From Bacillota bacterium (GTDB lineage: Bacteria; Bacillota; Negativicutes; Sporomusales; CTSoil-080): a stretch of 56,153 nt of DNA. A program made the position numbers and the translations under genes. Of this stretch, positions 20,694 through 30,468 are shown piece after piece. Each line of letters begins with the position of its first letter. Positions within the stretch are counted from its first letter, which is position 1. The notes under the pieces were generated by a model. The model did not search any database. It saw nothing but the letters and a program-made list of their open reading frames with translations, and was not told the DNA's origin. The stretch covers positions 1 to 56,153 of the forward strand of contig JAGGAC010000016.1 in the NCBI GenBank assembly GCA_017889635.1. Direction: 5' to 3'.

Positions 20694-22022
20694 CTAATGA
20701 GTTATCGTCTGTGTACTTGGTACACTCAGTCTTGCGCGATCGGTCGTGAAACTAACCCACAAAGCACTAATAAGCGGAACGCAAGCAAAGATTACTAAAT
20801 TCATCGGCACCGAGATATTGTAAGTCAACAATGCGCTCCCCACCAAAGGGCCGATAATTCCGCCAATCCGGCCTGCTCCATACCCCAGTGTTGTTCCGGT
20901 TGAGCGGCAGGTTATCGGATAATTTTGGGCGATATACGAACCGGTCACACACATCATACTATGCTGGCATGCGCCGGTAAAAAATAATAATATTGACAGT
21001 GCTATCGCGTTAGACAACTGCCCAATAGTGGCAGTAAACACGGCCAAACAAAACGCGATGACAATCAACGTCCTTTTACCGCCGAATTTATCCTGAGCCC
21101 ATCCGGAAATAGGAAGCCCCAGAATAAAGCCAGCATTCCAAGTCAGAGTAAAAAACAGGCTGACATTCAAAGACCATCCCAGCATTATCATTAATTTAGG
21201 AAGCCATGTAAGTACGCCAAAAGTAAAAATATAATTACAAATAAAGATCAGCCAGAACAGAAGGGTATTTTTCGCCAAGCCATTTCTAAATAGGGCTCTT
21301 AAATCACTCTTACCGGCATTAAAACCACTTAACTTATACTCATCTTCCGGTGCAGGCACGAATTTTGGATTAGCGGCTGTCAGTACTTTTACAATCTTCT
21401 CTTTTTGGCCCTTCCGCAAATAGTAACCCATTGATTCAGGCAGATAATACTGCCATATAATCAGAAATATCGGCATAGCTGCCACAAAAAACATAACCCG
21501 CCAACCGTATGTACTCATCAGCGCCAAACCTGCCAAAGTGGCAATTACTGTCCCGGATGGCTGCCCGGAAGTAACCCAGACTGTCAGCCGGCTCCGAATT
21601 GCTAAGGGGGAATATTCCGCCCCATAAGCAATCGCCAGCGGAAAAGCTCCGGCGAGGCCCAGACCAGCAATGGTTCGATATATGGCGAACTCCGTAAAAT
21701 TGCTTGATAAACCTACTGCGGCGGTAAATACACAATATATTGTCGTGGCAGCGACAAGCGCCAATCTGCGGCCAATCCATTCGGCAATCGGACCAAAAGC
21801 AATCGATCCGATAATCATTCCCACAAATCCATAGCTGCCAAGCAAACCAATTTGAGCCGGAGTCAAGGCCCAGTCTTTCATAAGGGATGGAACAACAAGC
21901 GAAAAGACATTCAGGTCGAACCCGTCAAAAATCGTTGTCCACATACATACCCAAAAAACATTTTTATAGAACCTATTGAAATTCCCCTGATCAATCACCT
22001 CATTAACCGCAACCGTCCGCAT
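20694..22022 (-). CDS. MFS transporter, aromatic-acid:H+ symporter type
   Basis: A 442-residue, 12-TM carrier. DGFDLNVFSLVVPSL in TM1 and GFVGMIIGSIAFGPIAEWIGRR (the family motif between TM2 and TM3) are as in the AAHS group (PcaK, BenK). Start 22022 is set by AAAAAGGGGG. It is the last gene of the cyclase-thiolase-ptb-buk operon, 45 bases after buk. With a transhydroxylase nearby, an aromatic acid such as gallate is the likely cargo, which is an inference. Confidence 0.85.
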   Translation of the reverse strand: MRTVAVNEVIDQGNFNRFYKNVFWVCMWTTIFDGFDLNVFSLVVPSLMKDWALTPAQIGLLGSYGFVGMIIGSIAFGPIAEWIGRRLALVAATTIYCVFTAAVGLSSNFTEFAIYRTIAGLGLAGAFPLAIAYGAEYSPLAIRSRLTVWVTSGQPSGTVIATLAGLALMSTYGWRVMFFVAAMPIFLIIWQYYLPESMGYYLRKGQKEKIVKVLTAANPKFVPAPEDEYKLSGFNAGKSDLRALFRNGLAKNTLLFWLIFICNYIFTFGVLTWLPKLMIMLGWSLNVSLFFTLTWNAGFILGLPISGWAQDKFGGKRTLIVIAFCLAVFTATIGQLSNAIALSILLFFTGACQHSMMCVTGSYIAQNYPITCRSTGTTLGYGAGRIGGIIGPLVGSALLTYNISVPMNLVIFACVPLISALWVSFTTDRARLSVPSTQTITH

Positions 22023-22067
22023 TAATAAGCCCCCTTTTTTTGCTTTAAGCCCGGTAATCATTTTCAC

Positions 22068-23150
22068 TTATTCAGGCGCAACAAATTCATGGGCTTCTTC
22101 CTCGCCCTTCAACACACGCAGTACCCCAAAGGCCAGCGCTTCCAGCTCGTTTTCCCCGGGGACAATTTCTACAGGTGCAATATACTTCACTTTGTCAATA
22201 ACCCAACTGGTAAACAGCTGCGAATTGGCAATTGCCCCTGTAAGGATAATAACATCCACCTTGCCATTGACAACGGTAGCCAGTTCCCCAATACCTTTCG
22301 CAACCTGATAGGCCATTGCATAATAAACACTTTCAGCAAATTTGTTACCGGCTTTTATTTTGGCTTCGACTTCAAGCGCATTGTTTGTTCCCAGGTAGGC
22401 GACCAGTCCGCCATTCCCCCGCATCCGCCTTACTGCCGCTTTTTGATCATAGGTACCGGAAAAACAAAGGTTTACCAATTGGCGGCACGGCACCCGGCCT
22501 GCTCTTTCCGGCGAAAATGGACCTTCTTCATCGGTAAGAACATCAATCATCTTGCCGCTATTGATTACTGATGCGGTAATTCCGCCCCCCATATGAGCAA
22601 CAACAATATTCATATCCGCCAAGCTCTTACCCAGCTTTTGGGCCACTTTTAATGAAACGGCGCGCATATTTAGTACATGACACGATGCTCTTCTGGTAAG
22701 CTCCGGAACACCTGACAGCCTGGCAACATCCTCAAGTTCGTCAACAACAACCGCATCATAAATAAAGGCCGGGATTTTTAACGGAGCTGCAATACTATCG
22801 GCAATAATTGCTCCCAGATTTGAAGCATGGTCATCAATCGGACGATAAGTCAGGAAGTCGACCATTGCTTTGGTGATTCGATAAGCACCACGCTTTAACG
22901 GAGGAAGCTTCCCGCCGCGCCCGGCAACTGCCGAAAGGCCCGCAATTTGAAAATTCTCCTGTTGTAAACATTCCATTATCGCCGCTTTGCGCATTTCTAA
23001 CTGGTCAACCATTGACTTATACTCAGCCAATTCAGCGGCATTATGCTCCACCGTCCTATGAAAAAGCTCCGTTTCATCCTGATATACCGCCAGCTTAGTC
23101 GAAGTCGACCCTGGATTAATCGAAAGTATTTGGTACTTATTTTCCCCCAT
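22068..23150 (-). CDS. buk: Butyrate kinase
   Basis: A 360-residue ASKHA-fold acyl kinase, converting butyryl phosphate and ADP to butyrate and ATP. Signature blocks: SINPGSTSTKLAVY (7-20), VAGRGGKLPPLKRGAY near 74, VVAHMGGGITASVI near 192, LTGAIANS near 300. Length fits Buk. ATG 23150 (MGENKYQ) is used, after GGGGGATTGGGGG. Partner gene ptb is 35 bases upstream. Branched-chain or other C4 acyl substrates are possible. Confidence 0.93.
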   Translation of the reverse strand: MGENKYQILSINPGSTSTKLAVYQDETELFHRTVEHNAAELAEYKSMVDQLEMRKAAIMECLQQENFQIAGLSAVAGRGGKLPPLKRGAYRITKAMVDFLTYRPIDDHASNLGAIIADSIAAPLKIPAFIYDAVVVDELEDVARLSGVPELTRRASCHVLNMRAVSLKVAQKLGKSLADMNIVVAHMGGGITASVINSGKMIDVLTDEEGPFSPERAGRVPCRQLVNLCFSGTYDQKAAVRRMRGNGGLVAYLGTNNALEVEAKIKAGNKFAESVYYAMAYQVAKGIGELATVVNGKVDVIILTGAIANSQLFTSWVIDKVKYIAPVEIVPGENELEALAFGVLRVLKGEEEAHEFVAPE

Positions 23151-23185
23151 CCCCCAATCCCCCCTTATAACCACCAGCTTATTTT

Positions 23186-24094
23186 CTAAGCTGAAGCCGC
23201 GGCCGCCAAGATTATCGGTAAATACTTACTTTCGGCTTCTGCCGCCCGCGATGTTAATACCAACGGTGCCTTCCCACCGATAACAATTCCGGCACTAATC
23301 GCTTGAGCTGAATATCTTAGCGCTTTGAGCAAAACGTTTCCGGTGACAAGATTAGGCACCACCAGCAGGTCAACATCGCCGCAAACCGGACTTTCATAAC
23401 CTTTTAGCTCTGCAGCCTGTTTCGAGATAGCCAAATCGTAGGAAATCGGCCCCTCAATAATACAGTCCGTAAAATTGCCTTGGAAATTCATCTTTTTCAA
23501 CGCATCAGCATCAACAGTATCTTGCATCTTGGGGTTTACCTGCTCCACCGCCGACAGAATAGCAACCTTAAGTCTGTCAAACCCCATCAGCCTCATGGTA
23601 TTTATGGCGTTCTCTAGGATAATCTTTTTCTGGGCAAGATCAGGAGCAACGCTTAACGCTGCGTCGGTTAGACCAAACAACTTATGATAGGCGGGAATCT
23701 CGACAATACTCAAGTGTGTCATCTGAGTTTCGGTACGGAAACCAGCTTGCTCACTAAGCAAAATTTTCATCATTTCGCCGGTCTGAAGCAAGCCCTTCAT
23801 CAGAAAATGGGCCTTACCGTCACTTATCATTCTGGCGGCTGCAAGTACAATGCCTTCAGTTGTCTCAACATTCACGATAGGGTAATCACTAGCTTGCTCA
23901 TTTAATATGGTTAATTGCCTTTTTATCCTTGCCTTATTCCCTATCAATAGTGGTTCTATAATTCCGACCCGTCTAGCCTGACAAACAGCTTCAAGTGTAT
24001 GCCTGTCTTCAGCTGCCATAACCGCTGCAACTTTTCGCTTGTTACTGTCGATGCTAAGATGCTCAATCAAGTGTCCGAAATTTTTGTAGCTCAT
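23186..24094 (-). CDS. ptb: Phosphate butyryltransferase
   Basis: A 302-residue phosphotransacylase, making butyryl phosphate from butyryl-CoA. Family blocks: KVAAVMAAEDRHTLEAV, HFLMKGLLQTGEMMK near 95, GFDRLKVAILSAVEQVNPKM near 175, CGDVDLLVVPNLVTGN near 240. Together with Buk it gives the ATP-yielding last step of the pathway. GGAGAGGGGC ribosome site. Confidence 0.93.
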   Translation of the reverse strand: MSYKNFGHLIEHLSIDSNKRKVAAVMAAEDRHTLEAVCQARRVGIIEPLLIGNKARIKRQLTILNEQASDYPIVNVETTEGIVLAAARMISDGKAHFLMKGLLQTGEMMKILLSEQAGFRTETQMTHLSIVEIPAYHKLFGLTDAALSVAPDLAQKKIILENAINTMRLMGFDRLKVAILSAVEQVNPKMQDTVDADALKKMNFQGNFTDCIIEGPISYDLAISKQAAELKGYESPVCGDVDLLVVPNLVTGNVLLKALRYSAQAISAGIVIGGKAPLVLTSRAAEAESKYLPIILAAAASA

Positions 24095-24156: not shown

Positions 24157-25347
24157 CTAAACCAGTTCAATTACATCAGCAATTCCCATACCGCCACCAA
24201 TGCAAAGGGTAGCAATACCGTATTTCACTTTGCGCCGCTGCATTTCATAGAGCAAGGTCGTCAGAATTTTTGCTCCGGTGCAACCAAGCGGATGCCCCAA
24301 AGCAATAGCGCCGCCATTTACATTTAATATATCAGTGTTCATGTTCAGCTCTTTTATTACTGCCAAACACTGGGCCGCAAACGCTTCATTCATTTCTATC
24401 AGCCCAATGTCACCTAAATTCAGCCCCGCCACTTTAAGAGCTTTCCGAGCCGCTAAAGCCGGTCCAATCCCCATAATCTCCGGCGGCACTCCCACTACGG
24501 CCTGACTGCGTAAAACAGCAAGCGGCTTGAGGTTTTTCTTTTGCGCCGCCGTAGCTGACATGATAACCAGACAAGCGGCTCCGTCATTGCGACCGGTAGC
24601 ATTACCAGCGGTAACGGTTCCGTCGGCTTTGAAGGCTGGTTTTAGTTTAGCTAACCCCTCCATTGTCGTCAGACGCGGAAATTCGTCAGTATCAAAGCTA
24701 GCCGGCTCACCCTTTTTCTTGGGAATAGTAACCGGAATAATCTCGCTAGTAAATTTCCCGGTTTCAATAGCTACCTTAGCTTTCGCTTGGCTTCCAAACG
24801 CATATAAATCTTGTTCCTCACGACTAATCGCGTATTTAACTGCAAGGTTCTCTGCCGTCAGCCCCATGGTGAGCTGACCATAAACTTCTATCGGCTGCGA
24901 ACGGGGCTGACTTTCGATATTGGAATCGCACAAAACGCCGCTCCCTGATTTATAGCCGTAACGAGCGTCCCGCAAATAATATACGGCATTGCTCATGCTT
25001 TCAGTTCCGCCTGCGACTACTATTTCGGCCTGACCACACATAATAGCCTGAGCCCCATTATTAACAGCCTGCAGCCCGGAAGCACACTGGCGCATTACAG
25101 TATAGGCTGGTACATTAACAGGTACTCCGGCCTTCAAAGCGGCGACTCTTGCCAGATTAGCGGCCTCAGCGCTTTGTTTTGTCTGTCCAAAGATGACTTC
25201 ATCGATGGTTTCACTATCCACCTTGGCACGCCTTATCGCCTCTTTGATTACGTCTCTAGCCAAATCCTCTGGCTGAATATCACGCAACGCCCCGCCGATT
25301 TTCCCTACTGCCGTCCGTACGGCACTTACGATTACGACTTCTTCCAT
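24157..25347 (-). CDS. Thiolase (acetyl-CoA C-acetyltransferase type)
   Basis: A 396-residue degradative/biosynthetic thiolase. The acyl Cys is in MRQCASGLQAVN (near residue 88), with NEAFAAQ near 318, GHPLGCTGAK near 350 and the second catalytic Cys in TLCIGGGMG near 380. It can split acetoacetyl-CoA to two acetyl-CoA or run the reverse condensation. It sits between the cyclase gene (17 bases) and ptb, so it likely handles the C4 or C6 oxoacyl-CoA formed after ring opening. Confidence 0.92.
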   Translation of the reverse strand: MEEVVIVSAVRTAVGKIGGALRDIQPEDLARDVIKEAIRRAKVDSETIDEVIFGQTKQSAEAANLARVAALKAGVPVNVPAYTVMRQCASGLQAVNNGAQAIMCGQAEIVVAGGTESMSNAVYYLRDARYGYKSGSGVLCDSNIESQPRSQPIEVYGQLTMGLTAENLAVKYAISREEQDLYAFGSQAKAKVAIETGKFTSEIIPVTIPKKKGEPASFDTDEFPRLTTMEGLAKLKPAFKADGTVTAGNATGRNDGAACLVIMSATAAQKKNLKPLAVLRSQAVVGVPPEIMGIGPALAARKALKVAGLNLGDIGLIEMNEAFAAQCLAVIKELNMNTDILNVNGGAIALGHPLGCTGAKILTTLLYEMQRRKVKYGIATLCIGGGMGIADVIELV

Positions 25348-25363: not shown

Positions 25364-26125
25364 CTATTCTTCTACAATAGCCACCAGACGTACCATACCG
25401 CCATCCGCCATCTCGCATTTAAAAGGGAAAGCTGCGATTGTACAACGTTTCCCGGTTACCGAGTCAACCTCTCCGCCAGCATTTTCGATGGTGACAATAC
25501 CGTTCCCCATCAATAATCGGTGACAAGGCTCGTATTCCGGGAACTCTACATCAGGATCTTTTCCTGTTTCCCTTCGGTATTCTTTATCCAGCCAAGGCAT
25601 TGTCTGGATTAGCGGATAGTGCCAAAGTGGGCTGTCGGTTGCACCCCAGGTTCCTGTAACTCCTTTGACTCCCTTATTAATCAACCACTTAGCGGCCTCA
25701 GGTCCAAGACCTGGGTAATAATTGAAATATGTATAATTATTGTAGCGCCAGTACTTATGCCACCCGGTATTAAAGACCACCCAGTCACCGGCCTCTATTT
25801 GCGGCGTTGCGGCCTCCAAGTCCGCCGGAGTAATAATATGCCACTTCTCCAAATGGCGGAAATCAACTACAACGCCTGTGCCATAGCAATTATTAAGCGG
25901 TATCTTGTCAAGATAGATGCCCCCTTCCTCAGGATGCAAAACATGGATCGGCGCATCCATATGTGTGCCGGCATGCAGTGTGCCGGTATAAACAACGCTC
26001 CGCTTGTGGAAGCGTTCTAAAAATTCTACCCGTTTGAACTCAAGATCCGAACGAGCTCCCGGAAAAGGCCAAAGCGGTGTGTCGACACCCCAAGGTTGTG
26101 ACAAATCGTAAATTTTTGTTGTCAT
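25364..26125 (-). CDS. Cyclase-family metal hydrolase, candidate dihydrophloroglucinol ring-opening enzyme
   Basis: A 253-residue protein of the cyclase/kynurenine formamidase superfamily. The metal site motif GTHMDAPIHVLHPEE (His-x3-Asp-x3-His) is at about 53-67. Later landmarks: WVVFNTGWHKYW and GTWGATDSPLWHYP. It is first in the operon with thiolase, ptb, buk and MFS, behind an RNA leader. A metal-dependent cyclohydrolase of this superfamily opens dihydrophloroglucinol in anaerobic phloroglucinol degradation, and the transhydroxylase next door makes phloroglucinol, so this role is attractive but inferred. No phloroglucinol reductase is in the window. Confidence 0.8.
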   Translation of the reverse strand: MTTKIYDLSQPWGVDTPLWPFPGARSDLEFKRVEFLERFHKRSVVYTGTLHAGTHMDAPIHVLHPEEGGIYLDKIPLNNCYGTGVVVDFRHLEKWHIITPADLEAATPQIEAGDWVVFNTGWHKYWRYNNYTYFNYYPGLGPEAAKWLINKGVKGVTGTWGATDSPLWHYPLIQTMPWLDKEYRRETGKDPDVEFPEYEPCHRLLMGNGIVTIENAGGEVDSVTGKRCTIAAFPFKCEMADGGMVRLVAIVEE

Positions 26126-26181: not shown

Positions 26182-26317
26182 AAAAACCCAGCTCGTAGAA
26201 AGCCAGCGATAATAATAATCGCTCAGCATTTCTAACGAGCTAGGCCAGCATATTTCGCCTCAGATTTTCATTCTGACAGCATATTCAAGCTACTCGCGAA
26301 AAGTATTCAATTAGCCG
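26182..26317 (-). ncRNA. Structured leader RNA with terminator, copy 1 (upstream of cyclase operon)
   Basis: On the minus strand: conserved GGCTAATTGAA, CGAGTAGCTTG (26296-26286), a TCAGA/TCTGA hairpin (26276-26260), AAATATGCTGGCC, then the terminator AGCTCG...CGAGCT (26241-26190) with a GGGTTTTT tail. The first CGAG can pair with the CTCG of the terminator arm, giving a competing antiterminator or aptamer stem. It ends 56 bases before the cyclase start. Copy 2 (30176-30306) has the same order; the terminator helix has G-C here where copy 2 has A-T. I know no riboswitch class with this core. Confidence 0.7.
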
Positions 26318-26330
26318 GGTCTTCATAACT

Positions 26331-26651
26331 TTATTTGTGATTTCTACCTTTGGTCAGCATGTAGCGCTCGCGAATTATTTGCAGGGCACTGATAAGAGCA
26401 CGTCTTGATCCAGTAAAAAGCCTATCTTCAAGTTCTTTAATAATCAAATTGAGTTCAGTCTCGATTGATTTCCCTCTAATGATCTCCGCAATAAAATCGC
26501 CGGTCAGCTGACAATATATCGGGACGGCGCAATCAATTATCTGCCCATTATCACTATTAACCTTTAGAATTATTGATACATATCTGTAAGTCTGGTGTAA
26601 ATCTGTCCCTTCAGGAAGTTGAGTATGCGCCGAAAAAAGCTGTGTTTTCAT
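26331..26651 (-). CDS. DUF3870 family protein
   Basis: A 106-residue protein: TQLFSAHTQLPEGTDLHQTY at the start, KVNSDNGQIIDCAVP in the middle, and TGDFIAEIIRGKSIE then a long helix to RERYM. These match the DUF3870 layout. Function unknown; members often lie near catabolic operons of anaerobes. GGAGCAGGTAG precedes the ATG. It lies between the transhydroxylase small subunit gene and RNA leader copy 1. A decayed partial copy lies before RNA copy 2. Confidence 0.8.
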   Translation of the reverse strand: MKTQLFSAHTQLPEGTDLHQTYRYVSIILKVNSDNGQIIDCAVPIYCQLTGDFIAEIIRGKSIETELNLIIKELEDRLFTGSRRALISALQIIRERYMLTKGRNHK

Positions 26652-26696
26652 CTACCTGCTCCTTTAGGTTGCTGCCTGATGCAGCAGCAGTTTATA

Positions 26697-26755
26697 TTTT
26701 ATCGCGTTAACAGCCGATAAGATAAGAGCGCGCTCCTATTCTATACAACTTTAGT
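26697..26755 (-). repeat. Dispersed hairpin repeat, copy D
   Basis: Minus strand GTATAGAATAGGAGCGCGCTC..., ending TCGGCTGTTAACGCGATAA. Shorter and more diverged than A-C but with the same GGCTGTTAACG end. Confidence 0.55.
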
Positions 26756-26760
26756 TTATG

Positions 26761-27594
26761 TTACTTTTTCACTAAAAAGACTGTTCCGATGTAGACATCG
26801 CGCTCGGTTGTAATTTTACGGCTTTGGGTTACATAGCCGTTATACCGGATGGTAACTTCATATTCGCAGTTATCGGCCAATCCTTCAAATTCGAAATCAC
26901 CAAAACCATTTGTTACTACCCGATTATGATAATTTTTTGCTGTAACTTCCACTGCGGCATTTTCCACGCATTCGTCATTATCAGCAAAACAAACTGTTCC
27001 GGCAATAAACTTTTTAGGCAAGCCGATATACTTCACAGCCGCTTTACAGCCTTTCTCAGGTTGATAATCTTCCAGCTCGGACTGTGCCATAAGCTTGGAA
27101 ATTTCGCTAGTATGGTCTTCTATGTCGCCAAAAACCAACGCCCCGGTTGGACAGGCCTCAACACAACGCGGTTCCTTCCAGCCCGTATCCAAAAGATGGG
27201 CACACATAGTACACTTTTGGGGAATATTCTCTGCCGCGTTCCAGAAGATTACACCATAGGGGCAGGCATCCACCAATTCGCGTTGGTTCTTTGCTTTTTC
27301 GGGATCAATAATCACAATTCCATCATCTCTTTGGTAAACGGCGCCATCTTTTGCTTTAGCAATACAGGGCGCATCGTCACAATGCATACAACTGACAGGA
27401 GTGGTCGCCACTTTTACTTTTGGATACCGACCCCGTTCTTGGTTAATAATATTCATCCAGGCATGACCGTTCTCTGGCTGCGGTTTAGCAATTGGCATGC
27501 TATCGCGACCACAGTGTTCATCTTTACAGGCTAAAAAACAATTGTAGCAGGCCGAACACTTATCAACATCAATCAGCATTGAATATCTAGTCAT
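26761..27594 (-). CDS. athS: Transhydroxylase-like small subunit, three [4Fe-4S] plus C-terminal beta domain
   Basis: A 277-residue electron-transfer subunit. Cys motifs CSACYNCFLACKDEH (12-26), CMHCDDAPC near 69, CPYG near 111, and CTMCAHLL...CVEACPTGAL near 128-150 give three iron-sulfur clusters. Residues about 195-277 form a transthyretin/Cna-B-like domain (AAVEVTAKNY, TNGFGDFEFEGL, YEVTIRYNGY), which matches the extra beta domain of the Pelobacter acidigallici pyrogallol-phloroglucinol transhydroxylase small subunit and is not found in ordinary DMSO-reductase beta subunits. Its ATG follows the large-subunit stop directly. Confidence 0.85.
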   Translation of the reverse strand: MTRYSMLIDVDKCSACYNCFLACKDEHCGRDSMPIAKPQPENGHAWMNIINQERGRYPKVKVATTPVSCMHCDDAPCIAKAKDGAVYQRDDGIVIIDPEKAKNQRELVDACPYGVIFWNAAENIPQKCTMCAHLLDTGWKEPRCVEACPTGALVFGDIEDHTSEISKLMAQSELEDYQPEKGCKAAVKYIGLPKKFIAGTVCFADNDECVENAAVEVTAKNYHNRVVTNGFGDFEFEGLADNCEYEVTIRYNGYVTQSRKITTERDVYIGTVFLVKK

Positions 27595-30126
27595 TTATTT
27601 ACCCTCCCATTTTGCAACATCAATCAAACATGAATTGGGAGCAAAACCAGCAACATTCTTGGACATAGCCCGCTTACTTGTCAAAATGTTGACACAGCCA
27701 CCCTTGTCAGGACTTGTCGGCGAACCTGGCTCTAGTGGTACATACCGGCCTGATGAACAATAAGCGTGAATTACAAACTTTGGTGTCCGTTCAGTCAGCC
27801 TGGCGACACATAGCACAACGCCCCGGTCATTGAAAAGCTTGATAATATCACCTTCATTAATTCCGCGATCTTTAGCCGTTTCAGGATGAAGCCTTGCAAC
27901 AAGATATGCATTGCCATCATCTTTAACAACACGGTGTTCCGGTATTTCTGACAACCAGTCACTATCACTATGATCGTATTGGGTATGATAACCAAATCTA
28001 GGATGAGGCGAGATAAGGTGCAAGGGATATTTCGCATATAACTCGGATTTATGCCCTTCCCAACTATGGATATATTTTGCCATCGGCGCTCTTTCGTCAT
28101 CATCAGGAGTAAATTGTTTCAGACTTTCTGAGACAAATTCCAGCTTACCAGTAAAGGTCCCCAGCTTATCAGCTGTTGCCGGATCTTTTTTTGCTGGCGA
28201 TGCATCAGGCGTATCGCAAGGCCGGTCTTCATAATACCACCTGAACGCCGGAGTCGCTTTATACTCTTCCGAAGCCGGAACCGGCACAATGTAATAACCC
28301 CGTGCCTTAAACTCTTCATAGGACATTACATTCGGCATATCGGACAGATCATACAACCGTTTTATCCACTCTTCTTCCGTCCGTCCTTCGGTATAAGCCT
28401 CCCCATAGCCAAGCCGCTCAGACAAAAGCGAGAAAATATCATAATCGGACTTTGATTCTCCTACCGGCTCAATGCACTTATGCTGATACATAATTACGCG
28501 GTAGTTATTACCGCAAAAACCGTCCTTAGCGTATCCCCCGGCGTTGCACCACTCAGAAATATCATTTCGCTCAAAATTAGTACACGCTGGCAGGACGATA
28601 TCAGCCATCTTTGTTTCAGGATCCCACCAAATCGACTGATTGACGATACATTCCAGCTTGGAACTTTGATACGCCCTAATCCAATCGTTAGTTTCCGCCA
28701 TAGTTCCCATAAATGATCCGCCGTAGCGATAGAACATTTTGACTTCCGAGCAGCCTTCCATTGGGTAAGTATAGGGAATAAACTGCTGTTCAAGCGATTT
28801 ACCACAGAACCCCTCACCCAGCCAAGAAAAGGGCGGATTCAAAATACAGTCCGGGAACCAATTTCTGTACATCTTCTGCTTTACCGGATTAATCATTTCA
28901 TGGTCAGCCAATTGGGGGCTATTGATATTAGAATATGGGTCAGAATAACCAGGAAACTTAAAATCGAAGTTTGACGGAACACCCATTTGTGCCCCCCAGA
29001 AATTACCGCCCGGTTTTCCTAATCCTTGCATCGCAACCAAGCTGATCATCAGCCTGGCCCAGTCATGGCCAAAAGCCGTCCGACCAGCTCCAGCGAAGCC
29101 TCCGCGGCCGCCACAGGCCAGCATCGTGTTTTTCCTGGCCCATTCCCGAGCCAGGGCTTTAATGGTTGACGCCTCAACTCCGGTAAGCTCTGCCGCCCAT
29201 TGGGGCGTTTTCGCCGTGCCATCGCTCTCGCCCAAAATATGCTTTGCCCAAGTTTCAAACCCATGAGCCTTTCTGGCAATAAAGTCTTTGTCGTAAGTAC
29301 CTTCTGTCAGCCATACATAGGCTATTGCCTCCGCAAGCGCCGCATCAGTCCCGGGCCGCGGAGCAATCCATTTTTCCGCATCTTTCACTGCCGTAAAATT
29401 GCAGAACGGATCAATATAGACCATTTTTATACCAAGCTTTTTCATCCATACGCGCCAGATTGAAGACTCCTGACCCGAATATCCGCCGCGAATGGTATCA
29501 GGATCATTGGACCAATGAACAATCATTTCCGTATGCTTCAGTGCATCCTCCAGCAAGTCGTAAGCTTCAGGACACCCTAACCGCCAAAAATAACTGTAAA
29601 TATGGGTAGCACCCCAATGGAATCCCTCCCAGCTGTCAGGGTTATCAAATATTTGAGTATAACCGATCATGTTAAAAAAACGTTTGAAGGAACTCATTTT
29701 GTAATGAATCAGGCCCCAAGTATGATGCGACGAAACAATCCCTGTCAAAGCCTCTTTGCCGTAAGTATCCTGCACCCGTTTAATCTCACCGGCAACCAAA
29801 GTGAGAGCCTCATCCCAGCTCACGCGCCGATAGCCGGACTTTCCCCGCTTCTCCGGGTTTCTTGCGCCATTTGGGTCAAAATCCTCTCTAACCATCGGAT
29901 ACTTGACCCGTGACTCACTATAGATACGCTGCCTTTCTGTCAATACAACAGGAGAAACGGTAGTCTTACGTGGCGGAGAAAAACTATACCCTCTGGCATT
30001 AATAGTCCACTCCTTGGCGTCAGTATCATCAAGAACCAAAGGATACACTCTTCTGATTACTCCGTCTTCAACACAAACCCTGACAGGTCCCCCGCCGGTC
30101 ATCATTGTCGTCACCTTTTGACCCAT
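27595..30126 (-). CDS. athL: Transhydroxylase-like molybdopterin large subunit (pyrogallol hydroxytransferase)
   Basis: An 843-residue bis-MGD enzyme of the DMSO-reductase superfamily. It has no N-terminal [4Fe-4S] Cys motif, begins with a short beta segment, and carries SSHHTWG near 132 and DNPDSWEGFHWG near 161-172, the blocks that hold the active-site His and the Ser ligand of Mo in the P. acidigallici enzyme. SQSIWW-, ACTNFERNDISEW and SPHPRFGYHTQ-type blocks follow family order (here NQSIWWDPE). It would isomerise pyrogallol to phloroglucinol without net redox, with a tetrahydroxybenzene co-substrate. No Tat signal is seen, so it is cytoplasmic. AAGGAGG ribosome site. RNA leader copy 2 lies upstream. 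Confidence 0.87.
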   Translation of the reverse strand: MGQKVTTMMTGGGPVRVCVEDGVIRRVYPLVLDDTDAKEWTINARGYSFSPPRKTTVSPVVLTERQRIYSESRVKYPMVREDFDPNGARNPEKRGKSGYRRVSWDEALTLVAGEIKRVQDTYGKEALTGIVSSHHTWGLIHYKMSSFKRFFNMIGYTQIFDNPDSWEGFHWGATHIYSYFWRLGCPEAYDLLEDALKHTEMIVHWSNDPDTIRGGYSGQESSIWRVWMKKLGIKMVYIDPFCNFTAVKDAEKWIAPRPGTDAALAEAIAYVWLTEGTYDKDFIARKAHGFETWAKHILGESDGTAKTPQWAAELTGVEASTIKALAREWARKNTMLACGGRGGFAGAGRTAFGHDWARLMISLVAMQGLGKPGGNFWGAQMGVPSNFDFKFPGYSDPYSNINSPQLADHEMINPVKQKMYRNWFPDCILNPPFSWLGEGFCGKSLEQQFIPYTYPMEGCSEVKMFYRYGGSFMGTMAETNDWIRAYQSSKLECIVNQSIWWDPETKMADIVLPACTNFERNDISEWCNAGGYAKDGFCGNNYRVIMYQHKCIEPVGESKSDYDIFSLLSERLGYGEAYTEGRTEEEWIKRLYDLSDMPNVMSYEEFKARGYYIVPVPASEEYKATPAFRWYYEDRPCDTPDASPAKKDPATADKLGTFTGKLEFVSESLKQFTPDDDERAPMAKYIHSWEGHKSELYAKYPLHLISPHPRFGYHTQYDHSDSDWLSEIPEHRVVKDDGNAYLVARLHPETAKDRGINEGDIIKLFNDRGVVLCVARLTERTPKFVIHAYCSSGRYVPLEPGSPTSPDKGGCVNILTSKRAMSKNVAGFAPNSCLIDVAKWEGK

Positions 30127-30175
30127 TTTTAACCTCCTTGATTGTATTCCTTTTTAACTCCCATACCCACAAAAT

Positions 30176-30306
30176 AAAAACCCAGCCCGTAGAAAGCCAA
30201 CGATAATAATCGTTCAGCATTTCTACCGAGCTAGGCCAGCATATTTCCTGTCAGATTTTCATTCTGACTAGATATCCAAGCTACTCGTGAATTTTTTCAA
30301 TTAGCC
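30176..30306 (-). ncRNA. Structured leader RNA with terminator, copy 2 (upstream of transhydroxylase operon)
   Basis: Homologous to copy 1 over about 130 bases. GTCAGA/TCTGAC hairpin at 30268-30250 (one extra pair compared with copy 1), CGAGTAGCTTG at 30287-30277, AAATATGCTGGCC, then terminator 30232-30184 with AACGAT/ATCGTT where copy 1 has AGCGAT/ATCGCT, a compensatory change. A U-rich tail follows and the athL start is 50 bases further on. Role inferred: transcription attenuation controlled by a small molecule or protein. Confidence 0.7.
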
Positions 30307-30439: not shown

Positions 30440-30468
30440 AGTATAACAAACATTCCTTGGTTTATCAA
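30440..30468 (-). promoter_or_regulatory. Promoter of the transhydroxylase leader
   Basis: TTGATA (30468-30463) and TATACT (30445-30440), exactly 17 bases apart, overlapping the stop codon of the symporter gene. A transcript from here would include the DUF3870 remnant and RNA copy 2 before athL. Confidence 0.65.

Follow-up and report, generated by a model that had tools for sequence, protein, structure and literature searches.

A family of hairpin-terminator leader RNAs in Negativicutes and DUF3870 proteins as their candidate antiterminators

Introduction

Antiterminators of the BglG/SacY/LicT group work on a hairpin overlapping an intrinsic terminator in its 5′ arm, and the regulator gene lies directly adjacent to its switch; two reports place E. 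coli bglG between two terminators (PMC9499468) and licT beside its ribonucleic antiterminator, RAT (PMC1489936). In the ANTAR/EutV system, according to passages of a third, a protein-stabilised RNA blocks an intrinsic terminator (PMC8934654). Here we describe two homologous leader RNAs, elements 1 and 2, in a stretch of 56,153 nucleotides from a bacterium of the class Negativicutes (assembly GCA_017889635.1, contig JAGGAC010000016.1, positions 1 to 56,153; hereafter the window), and propose that they are conditional terminators opened by a DUF3870 protein encoded between them. An earlier note on this DNA had taken the pair for a candidate riboswitch; its observation is real, and larger than first stated.

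The window repeats the bgl layout, with a DUF3870 gene lying between two switches as bglG lies between two terminators. Unlike BglG, SacY and LicT, the candidate regulator has neither the CAT RNA-binding domain nor PRD domains, and PF12986 is its sole match in Pfam. The hairpin of the elements is presumably also unlike RAT in sequence and geometry. Whereas ANTAR targets consist of two hexaloop hairpins, the elements have one stem (P1) with a bulge or internal loop and one hairpin (P2), and no ANTAR domain was found among the neighbours scanned. The molybdenum cofactor (Moco) riboswitch, RF01055, controls Moco genes in the same bacteria, and one copy lies near an element at locus L078, but in the sources scanned the elements match neither RF01055 nor any other Rfam family at gathering score. 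DUF3870 has appeared in print as the Bacteroides protein 3kog, in passages of one paper (PMC4387736). Among the papers listed by a literature search, which lacked most subscription papers and all bioRxiv preprints, there was no account of the element or of a regulatory or other function of DUF3870.

Results

Two leaders with mutually exclusive folds

Both elements lie on the minus strand where the earlier note had placed them, at 26182-26317 and 30176-30306, and share 86% identity by BLAST. They end 56 nt before the start codon of a cyclase gene (ATG at 26125) and 50 nt before that of a transhydroxylase gene (ATG at 30126), which bears out the proposed spacing of about 50-56 nt. The common order described for them is also correct in both copies: GGCTAATTGAA, CGAGTAGCTTG, a TCAGA/TCTGA hairpin, GAAATATGCTGGCCTAGCTCG, the terminator and a T run. 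Its first part did not extend to the family, as GGCTAATTGAA, upstream of CGAG, is not kept in the homologs listed, where the conserved element begins at YGAG. The parts are as follows (R1 is the covariance model described below).

26182..26317, minus strand: element 1, leader of the cyclase operon (R1 match 26229-26296)
26286..26295, minus strand: element 1, 5′ strand of the antiterminator stem P1, GAGUAGCUUG (alignments, pair counts)
26260..26276, minus strand: element 1, P2 hairpin, UCAGA...UCUGA
26237..26248, minus strand: element 1, 3′ strand of P1, CUGGCCUAGCUC, where this copy has a U-U mismatch; overlaps the terminator 5′ arm
26182..26246, minus strand: element 1, intrinsic terminator hairpin and T run (shuffle folding, terminator survey)
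30176..30306, minus strand: element 2, leader of the transhydroxylase operon (R1 match 30220-30287)
30277..30286, minus strand: element 2, 5′ strand of P1, GAGUAGCUUG
30251..30267, minus strand: element 2, P2 hairpin
30228..30239, minus strand: element 2, 3′ strand of P1; overlaps the terminator 5′ arm
30176..30237, minus strand: element 2, intrinsic terminator hairpin and T run (shuffle folding, terminator survey)
30440..30468, minus strand: promoter-like site TTGATA-17-TATACT with TG, upstream of element 2 (a consensus match only)

For neither leader did any of 200 dinucleotide shuffles fold as stably as the original (z -4.63 and -5.33). A simple consensus scan for terminators showed just a short inner match in element 1, and the terminator of element 2 was absent from its list. 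The terminator helix carries the paired change that had been pointed out, one copy having G-C (GAGCG..CGCTG) where the other has A-T (GAACG..CGTTG), so that pairing is preserved. The predicted alternative pairing of CGAG with CTCG in the terminator 5′ arm is possible and is kept across the family, which supports two exclusive folds.

The family consensus is approximately YGAGUNGCUUGNNUAUGRUAUCRGA-loop-UCYGAUAYNNAGUANGCAAGCCUAGCUC, followed by the terminator; the window copies deviate from it in places (CUGGCC for CAAGCC). P1 is made of GAG/CUC and GCUUG/CAAGC with a small internal loop separating them, and it surrounds an internal loop (UAU/AGUA) and the hairpin P2, whose loop varies in sequence and length. 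The 3′ strand of P1 doubles as the 5′ arm of an intrinsic terminator at 52 of 53 sites. By eye, the second half of the terminator appears to be lost at L084:3685-3753. Computed energies at the 52 sites run from -14 to -38 kcal/mol for the terminators and from -11 to -24 kcal/mol for the upstream hairpins, and at none of them does the upstream hairpin exceed the terminator in computed stability; the terminator is mostly far ahead. Read-through should therefore need help.

The wider alignment also brought covariation, with both sides changed in 10 of 16 pairs across the 52 sites and a covariation score of 0.317 that none of 500 shuffles reached, in an alignment fitted to the model. In the 22-sequence MAFFT alignment from which that model was built, the covariation score was again matched by 0 of 500 shuffles, the count of pairs with two-sided changes (4) by 38 of 500, and the count of pair types by 251 of 500.

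An RNA family new to Rfam

The earlier note did not recognise the leaders as a known class, and the window indeed has no Rfam 15 match at gathering score; the best E-values at the two elements were 4.9 and 8.6. When the window, each element and 29 further loci were scanned against Rfam, nothing but the separate Moco riboswitch and two tRNAs came up. The RNA family is new to Rfam.

A pattern search of 28 genomes from the order, with as many as 3 mismatches allowed, matched in 9, with some rows not real. Twenty-two sequences were aligned (alignment A2) and converted into model R1, which at E<=0.01 matched 51 times, in 11 of 380 Negativicutes genomes; further copies lie ahead of related catabolic genes, the point that the covariance search suggested in the earlier note was to test. 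Across the phylum, R1 matched in 2 of 398 genomes, the window's own (G000) and G678, which belongs to another class and is the one genome with the element among 11 of its genus. The two copies first noted are both real but are not the whole set in their genome, which carries 7 by R1 at E<=1, where BLAST at E<=0.001 finds just the two in the window. The pattern occurs in named genomes, among them those of Sporomusa silvacetica DSM 10669 and Sporomusa sp. KB1 and several metagenome-assembled genomes; viral contigs searched with two exact patterns gave no match.

At five loci, tandem elements, each with its own terminator, stand ahead of one operon (L086:5483-5715, L092:7887-8142, L093:8391-8644, L094:7798-8062 and L095:7093-7330), and L092-L094 have an additional divergent copy. 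Three of the 22 pattern stretches from named genomes were put down to chance, as the model does not match L167 or L169 and gives L150 a score of 17.9 bits. Weak order-level matches in G006 (E 0.475) and G007 (E 0.231) were dropped, as were 4 weak or antisense rows of 56 model rows; L075 (28.9 bits) was included in the terminator survey and omitted from alignment A7.

One DUF3870 clade accompanies the element

The DUF3870 protein of the window belongs to clade YC, named for a conserved P-x-Y-C motif, whose 19 proteins are monophyletic with support 0.989 in a tree of 89 DUF3870 sequences. When the 77 of 380 Negativicutes genomes that have PF12986 were searched with profile A4, 18 proteins scored 157.9-169.8 bits, all in the 11 element genomes, and the next best scored 73.4; element-free genomes show no intermediate. 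Clade YC is thus present in 11 of 11 element genomes and in 0 of 369 others of the class. Among 388 genomes of the phylum, A4 scores above 81 bits occurred in just G000 and G678, the two with the element. In 10 of 12 genomes a YC gene ends at most 200 nt before an element (12 of the 19 genes).

These results bear on the main rival, a true riboswitch in which the RNA itself binds a trihydroxybenzene or a pathway intermediate and DUF3870 is merely a pathway or accessory protein. The conserved internal-loop bases (UAU/AGUA) would suit such an aptamer, whereas the variable P2 loop would not. The tandem copies, a regulon compatible with a single pathway and the lack of a known regulator domain in DUF3870 are consistent with it as well, but it does not readily explain why the element co-occurs strictly with one DUF3870 clade, or why the YC gene often precedes the element instead of following it under its control. 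Some other DUF3870 genes, moreover, have hairpins of 35-38 nt that have no conserved loop and stand before unrelated operons. We regard a riboswitch as unlikely, while taking it as the alternative to be reckoned with first.

Similar hairpins behind other DUF3870 genes

Read directly, the DNA behind other DUF3870 genes holds hairpins of the same logic. In the YIVGNAK group of Negativicutes the RNA approximates GCUGYUUYRUUUA - apical part - UAAAURAAAUCCAGC, the CAGC being shared with the terminator. A regular expression for this RNA matched 21 of 74 loci, all within the 30 loci L102-L131, and seven hairpins of 35-38 nt are the shortest of the group. Model R2, built from elements behind YIVGNAK DUF3870 genes and searched against 280 genomes, gave 28 sense-strand hits in 25 genomes and 3 antisense shadows. 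Twenty-three of the 28 lie directly behind a same-strand DUF3870 gene; 18 are training rows, and the other 10 comprise 5 behind DUF3870, 1 behind what appears by eye to be a DUF3870 remnant, and 4 alone. Two of these 4 were scanned, and one precedes an enolase-family gene, the other a beta-lactamase-like gene; the stand-alone hits could be trans targets, but two of the genomes that carry them, G001 and G026, have no matching high-scoring DUF3870. At L207:1250-1620 an apparently decayed DUF3870 gene (by eye) stands before an R2 element and an enolase-family gene.

We also applied a geometry test, which looks for 4 bp, a 2-nt bulge on the 3′ side and 9 bp, with the 3′ strand of the 4 bp inside the terminator arm. 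A pass meant that 0 of 60 shuffles of the upstream DNA were as good, and other terminators of the same loci served as controls. Passes numbered 20 among 59 terminators behind DUF3870 genes, two YC loci (L139, L197) included, versus 6 among 284 controls. The geometry had been read off the YIVGNAK-type group of 21 loci, and tests without that group are the fair ones: 8 of 38 then passed (p 3.3e-5), or 7 of 37 with L112 also removed (p 1.6e-4). The signal weakens when the R2-like loci L112, L188 and L195 are all left out (5 of 35, p 0.003). Across 15 selected rows, 11 of the 13 base pairs are exchanged for others that differ on both sides, one pair is open in 8 of the rows, and the bulge is UC, CC or GC, with AT in L113 and L116 and AC in L191 left out; these pairing and bulge counts are biased because the rows were hand-picked (at most 1 of 60 shuffles as good) and near-duplicates and other bulges were omitted.

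Behind these elements lies a varied set of genes, for an enolase-family protein, an Asp/Glu racemase, M20 and S66 peptidases, an amidohydrolase and a CoA-transferase, and further for 2,4-diaminopentanoate dehydrogenase, methylmalonyl-CoA mutase with MeaB, PrpF, malic enzyme, transporters and binding proteins. One RNA design paired with one protein family, while helix sequence and pathway vary by clade, is the expected trace of an RNA-binding antiterminator family. A protein-bound antiterminator fits better than an aptamer, given the clade co-occurrence, the position of the gene before the element and the simple hairpins before different operons. The earlier proposal of regulated termination with two exclusive folds stands, while a small molecule bound by the RNA has become the less likely decider; protein-dependent antitermination is the most likely explanation.

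Basic C terminus and predicted fold of DUF3870

The last 24 residues of DUF3870 proteins are mostly basic (median net charge +4, +4 and +3 in three groups; one group spans -2 to +6). Structure prediction, a single model from 11 sequences, gave a three-stranded sheet together with helices, the last of which is basic, at a mean predicted local distance difference test score (pLDDT) of 91.3. Profile A4 matched no PDB chain at E<=10, and HutP was not in the best 50 rows of either structure comparison.

Because the predicted fold looks enzyme- or scaffold-like, DUF3870 could instead be a ligand-binding accessory that acts on some other RNA-binding factor, the actual user of the element. Regulator genes do occur nearby, a PrpR-type gene before DUF3870 in G678 and a GntR-type gene adjoining in L091, but no other regulator family recurs in the Pfam-scanned downstream clusters, a weak argument in that upstream neighbours were not clustered. 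We consider this arrangement improbable.

Genes behind the elements

Transhydroxylase-like molybdoenzymes with an Fe-S subunit, cyclase-family hydrolases, BKACE and cupin proteins, SDR and 3-hydroxyacyl-CoA-type dehydrogenases, and a thiolase with acyltransferase and kinase are encoded behind the elements, together with MFS, SSF, TRAP and tripartite tricarboxylate transporters, uroporphyrinogen-decarboxylase-like proteins, chemotaxis receptors and Moco biosynthesis genes. The elements likely mark a trihydroxybenzene regulon, given that transhydroxylase, ring-cleavage-type and thiolase genes follow the sites, as do genes for transport, chemotaxis and the molybdenum cofactor. In Clostridium scatologenes, according to passages of one study, phloroglucinol degradation runs through a reductase, a cyclohydrolase, a dehydrogenase and a triacetate acetoacetate-lyase (PMC10470551), steps to which the present genes may correspond. 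Element and transhydroxylase domain do not always travel together: G022, G024 and G025 have the element without PF21423, and G009, G010 and G014 have PF21423 without the element, so the element is not bound to this domain alone.

In the window the order is element 2, transhydroxylase large and small subunits, DUF3870, element 1, cyclase, thiolase, acyltransferase, kinase and transporter, and the regulator gene thus has a switch on either side.

27595..30126, minus strand: pyrogallol-phloroglucinol transhydroxylase-like molybdoenzyme, large subunit (PF21423 66.2 bits, cut-off 27; PF00384, PF01568)
26761..27594, minus strand: Fe-S small subunit (PF13247)
26331..26651, minus strand: DUF3870 gene, 106 aa, clade YC, proposed RNA-binding antiterminator (PF12986 62.0 bits, cut-off 22)
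25364..26125, minus strand: cyclase-family protein (PF04199), candidate ring-opening hydrolase
24157..25347, minus strand: thiolase (profile matches)
23186..24094, minus strand: phosphate acyltransferase (phosphate butyryltransferase models nearest, below their cut-offs)
22068..23174, minus strand: butyrate kinase (TIGR02707 444.7 bits, cut-off 289.1)
20694..22067, minus strand: MFS transporter (PF07690; aromatic acid:H+ symport model TIGR00895 nearest, 287.3 bits, below its cut-off of 418.55)

In G678 a PrpR-type regulator gene is followed by DUF3870, the element, a transhydroxylase-like gene, the Fe-S subunit and TRAP transporter genes. At L088:4325-7154 an element-led MFS gene is followed by a gene resembling nitrogenase component 1 (PF00148, 5613-7154) and by a neighbour homologous to it. 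The third YC-type copies of L132, L133 and L135 lie, by eye, between MFS-like and methylmalonyl-CoA mutase-like genes, and in L133 and L135 a terminator with GGCAGGCCTGG looks like a decayed element to which the model gives no score. On the Sporomusa silvacetica contig, the RF01055 riboswitch (L078:7422-7551, 69 bits) stands immediately before moaA, with the new element farther upstream.

A sensor of Moco or molybdate would explain why elements precede moaA/moaC/mobB/moeA/mobA-type genes in L087, in L095 and, at a greater distance, in L078, and would suit a transhydroxylase that is a molybdoenzyme, but is very improbable in view of the separate riboswitch before moaA in L078, the many copies that precede genes with no molybdenum link, and the six genomes in which element and PF21423 part company.

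Discussion

We put at about 0.62 the probability that DUF3870 proteins bind these hairpins and thereby bring about read-through, the elements being protein-dependent conditional terminators. By default the nascent RNA would form the more stable terminator, and transcription would halt ahead of the operon. The DUF3870 protein encoded next to the element would bind the upstream hairpin and keep P1 folded, so that RNA polymerase reads through. The signal is probably a trihydroxybenzene or its degradation product, which DUF3870 may sense itself or have passed to it. Sequence comparison shows the RNA family, its exclusive folds and covariation, the link to one clade and, for a part of the remaining DUF3870 genes, a similar geometry behind them; from the whole we infer RNA binding by DUF3870, its direction, from binding to read-through, and the ligand.

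Several observations weigh against this proposal. The gap in A4 scores arises partly by construction, as the profile was built from the same proteins, and the co-occurrence counts are not independent because the genomes are related. The YC gene of G013 is found 3.3 kb, and that of G017 2.5 kb, downstream of an element; G015 and G089 each have two copies, one of which is a further exception to the close order of gene before element; and three more YC copies (L132, L133, L135) have no element by the model with filters off. Among the other DUF3870 genes, 39 of the 59 terminators fail the geometry test, L103-L105, L120 and L130 have no such element by eye, and L191 passes with an AC bulge in place of YC. 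Conversely, G001 (99% complete) and G026 (87%) have an R2 element and no matching high-scoring DUF3870. An energy-based antiterminator z-score, since superseded by the geometry test, gave a weak difference (6 of 59 versus 6 of 288 at z<-2.5, p 0.0026). YC elements have a bigger internal loop and a P2 hairpin, both absent in the other groups, and with these differences homology of the RNAs across groups can be proposed by inference only. Foldseek found no match to the predicted DUF3870 fold at E<=0.001. Structure comparison gave the C-terminal domain of lipoate ligase as best likeness (Z 8.7, 80 residues, 2.4 A), along with C-terminal domains of molybdenum-hydroxylase flavoproteins and IscU, all at Z near chance level, and no RNA-binding antiterminator is among these look-alikes; likenesses this weak neither support nor exclude RNA binding.

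A broader version can be put forward only tentatively, its chances falling a little short of even. DUF3870 proteins may be a widespread and previously unrecognised kind of RNA-binding antiterminator in Bacillota, made of one domain that perhaps folds like IscU; each paralog would sense its own catabolic signal and open its own hairpin-terminator switch, for phenols, peptides and D-amino acids, diaminopentanoate, CoA thioesters and organic acids. The window would then represent the branch for trihydroxybenzenes, and a genome would hold as many as a dozen copies.

The short RNAs and their protein partners make pairs that can be tested directly in the laboratory. If the proposal is true, a function would be assigned to a domain of unknown function present in 77 of 380 Negativicutes genomes, and one more protein family would join the few RNA-binding antiterminators. 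It would also explain how some anaerobes turn on phenol degradation jointly with its molybdenum cofactor, transport and chemotaxis.

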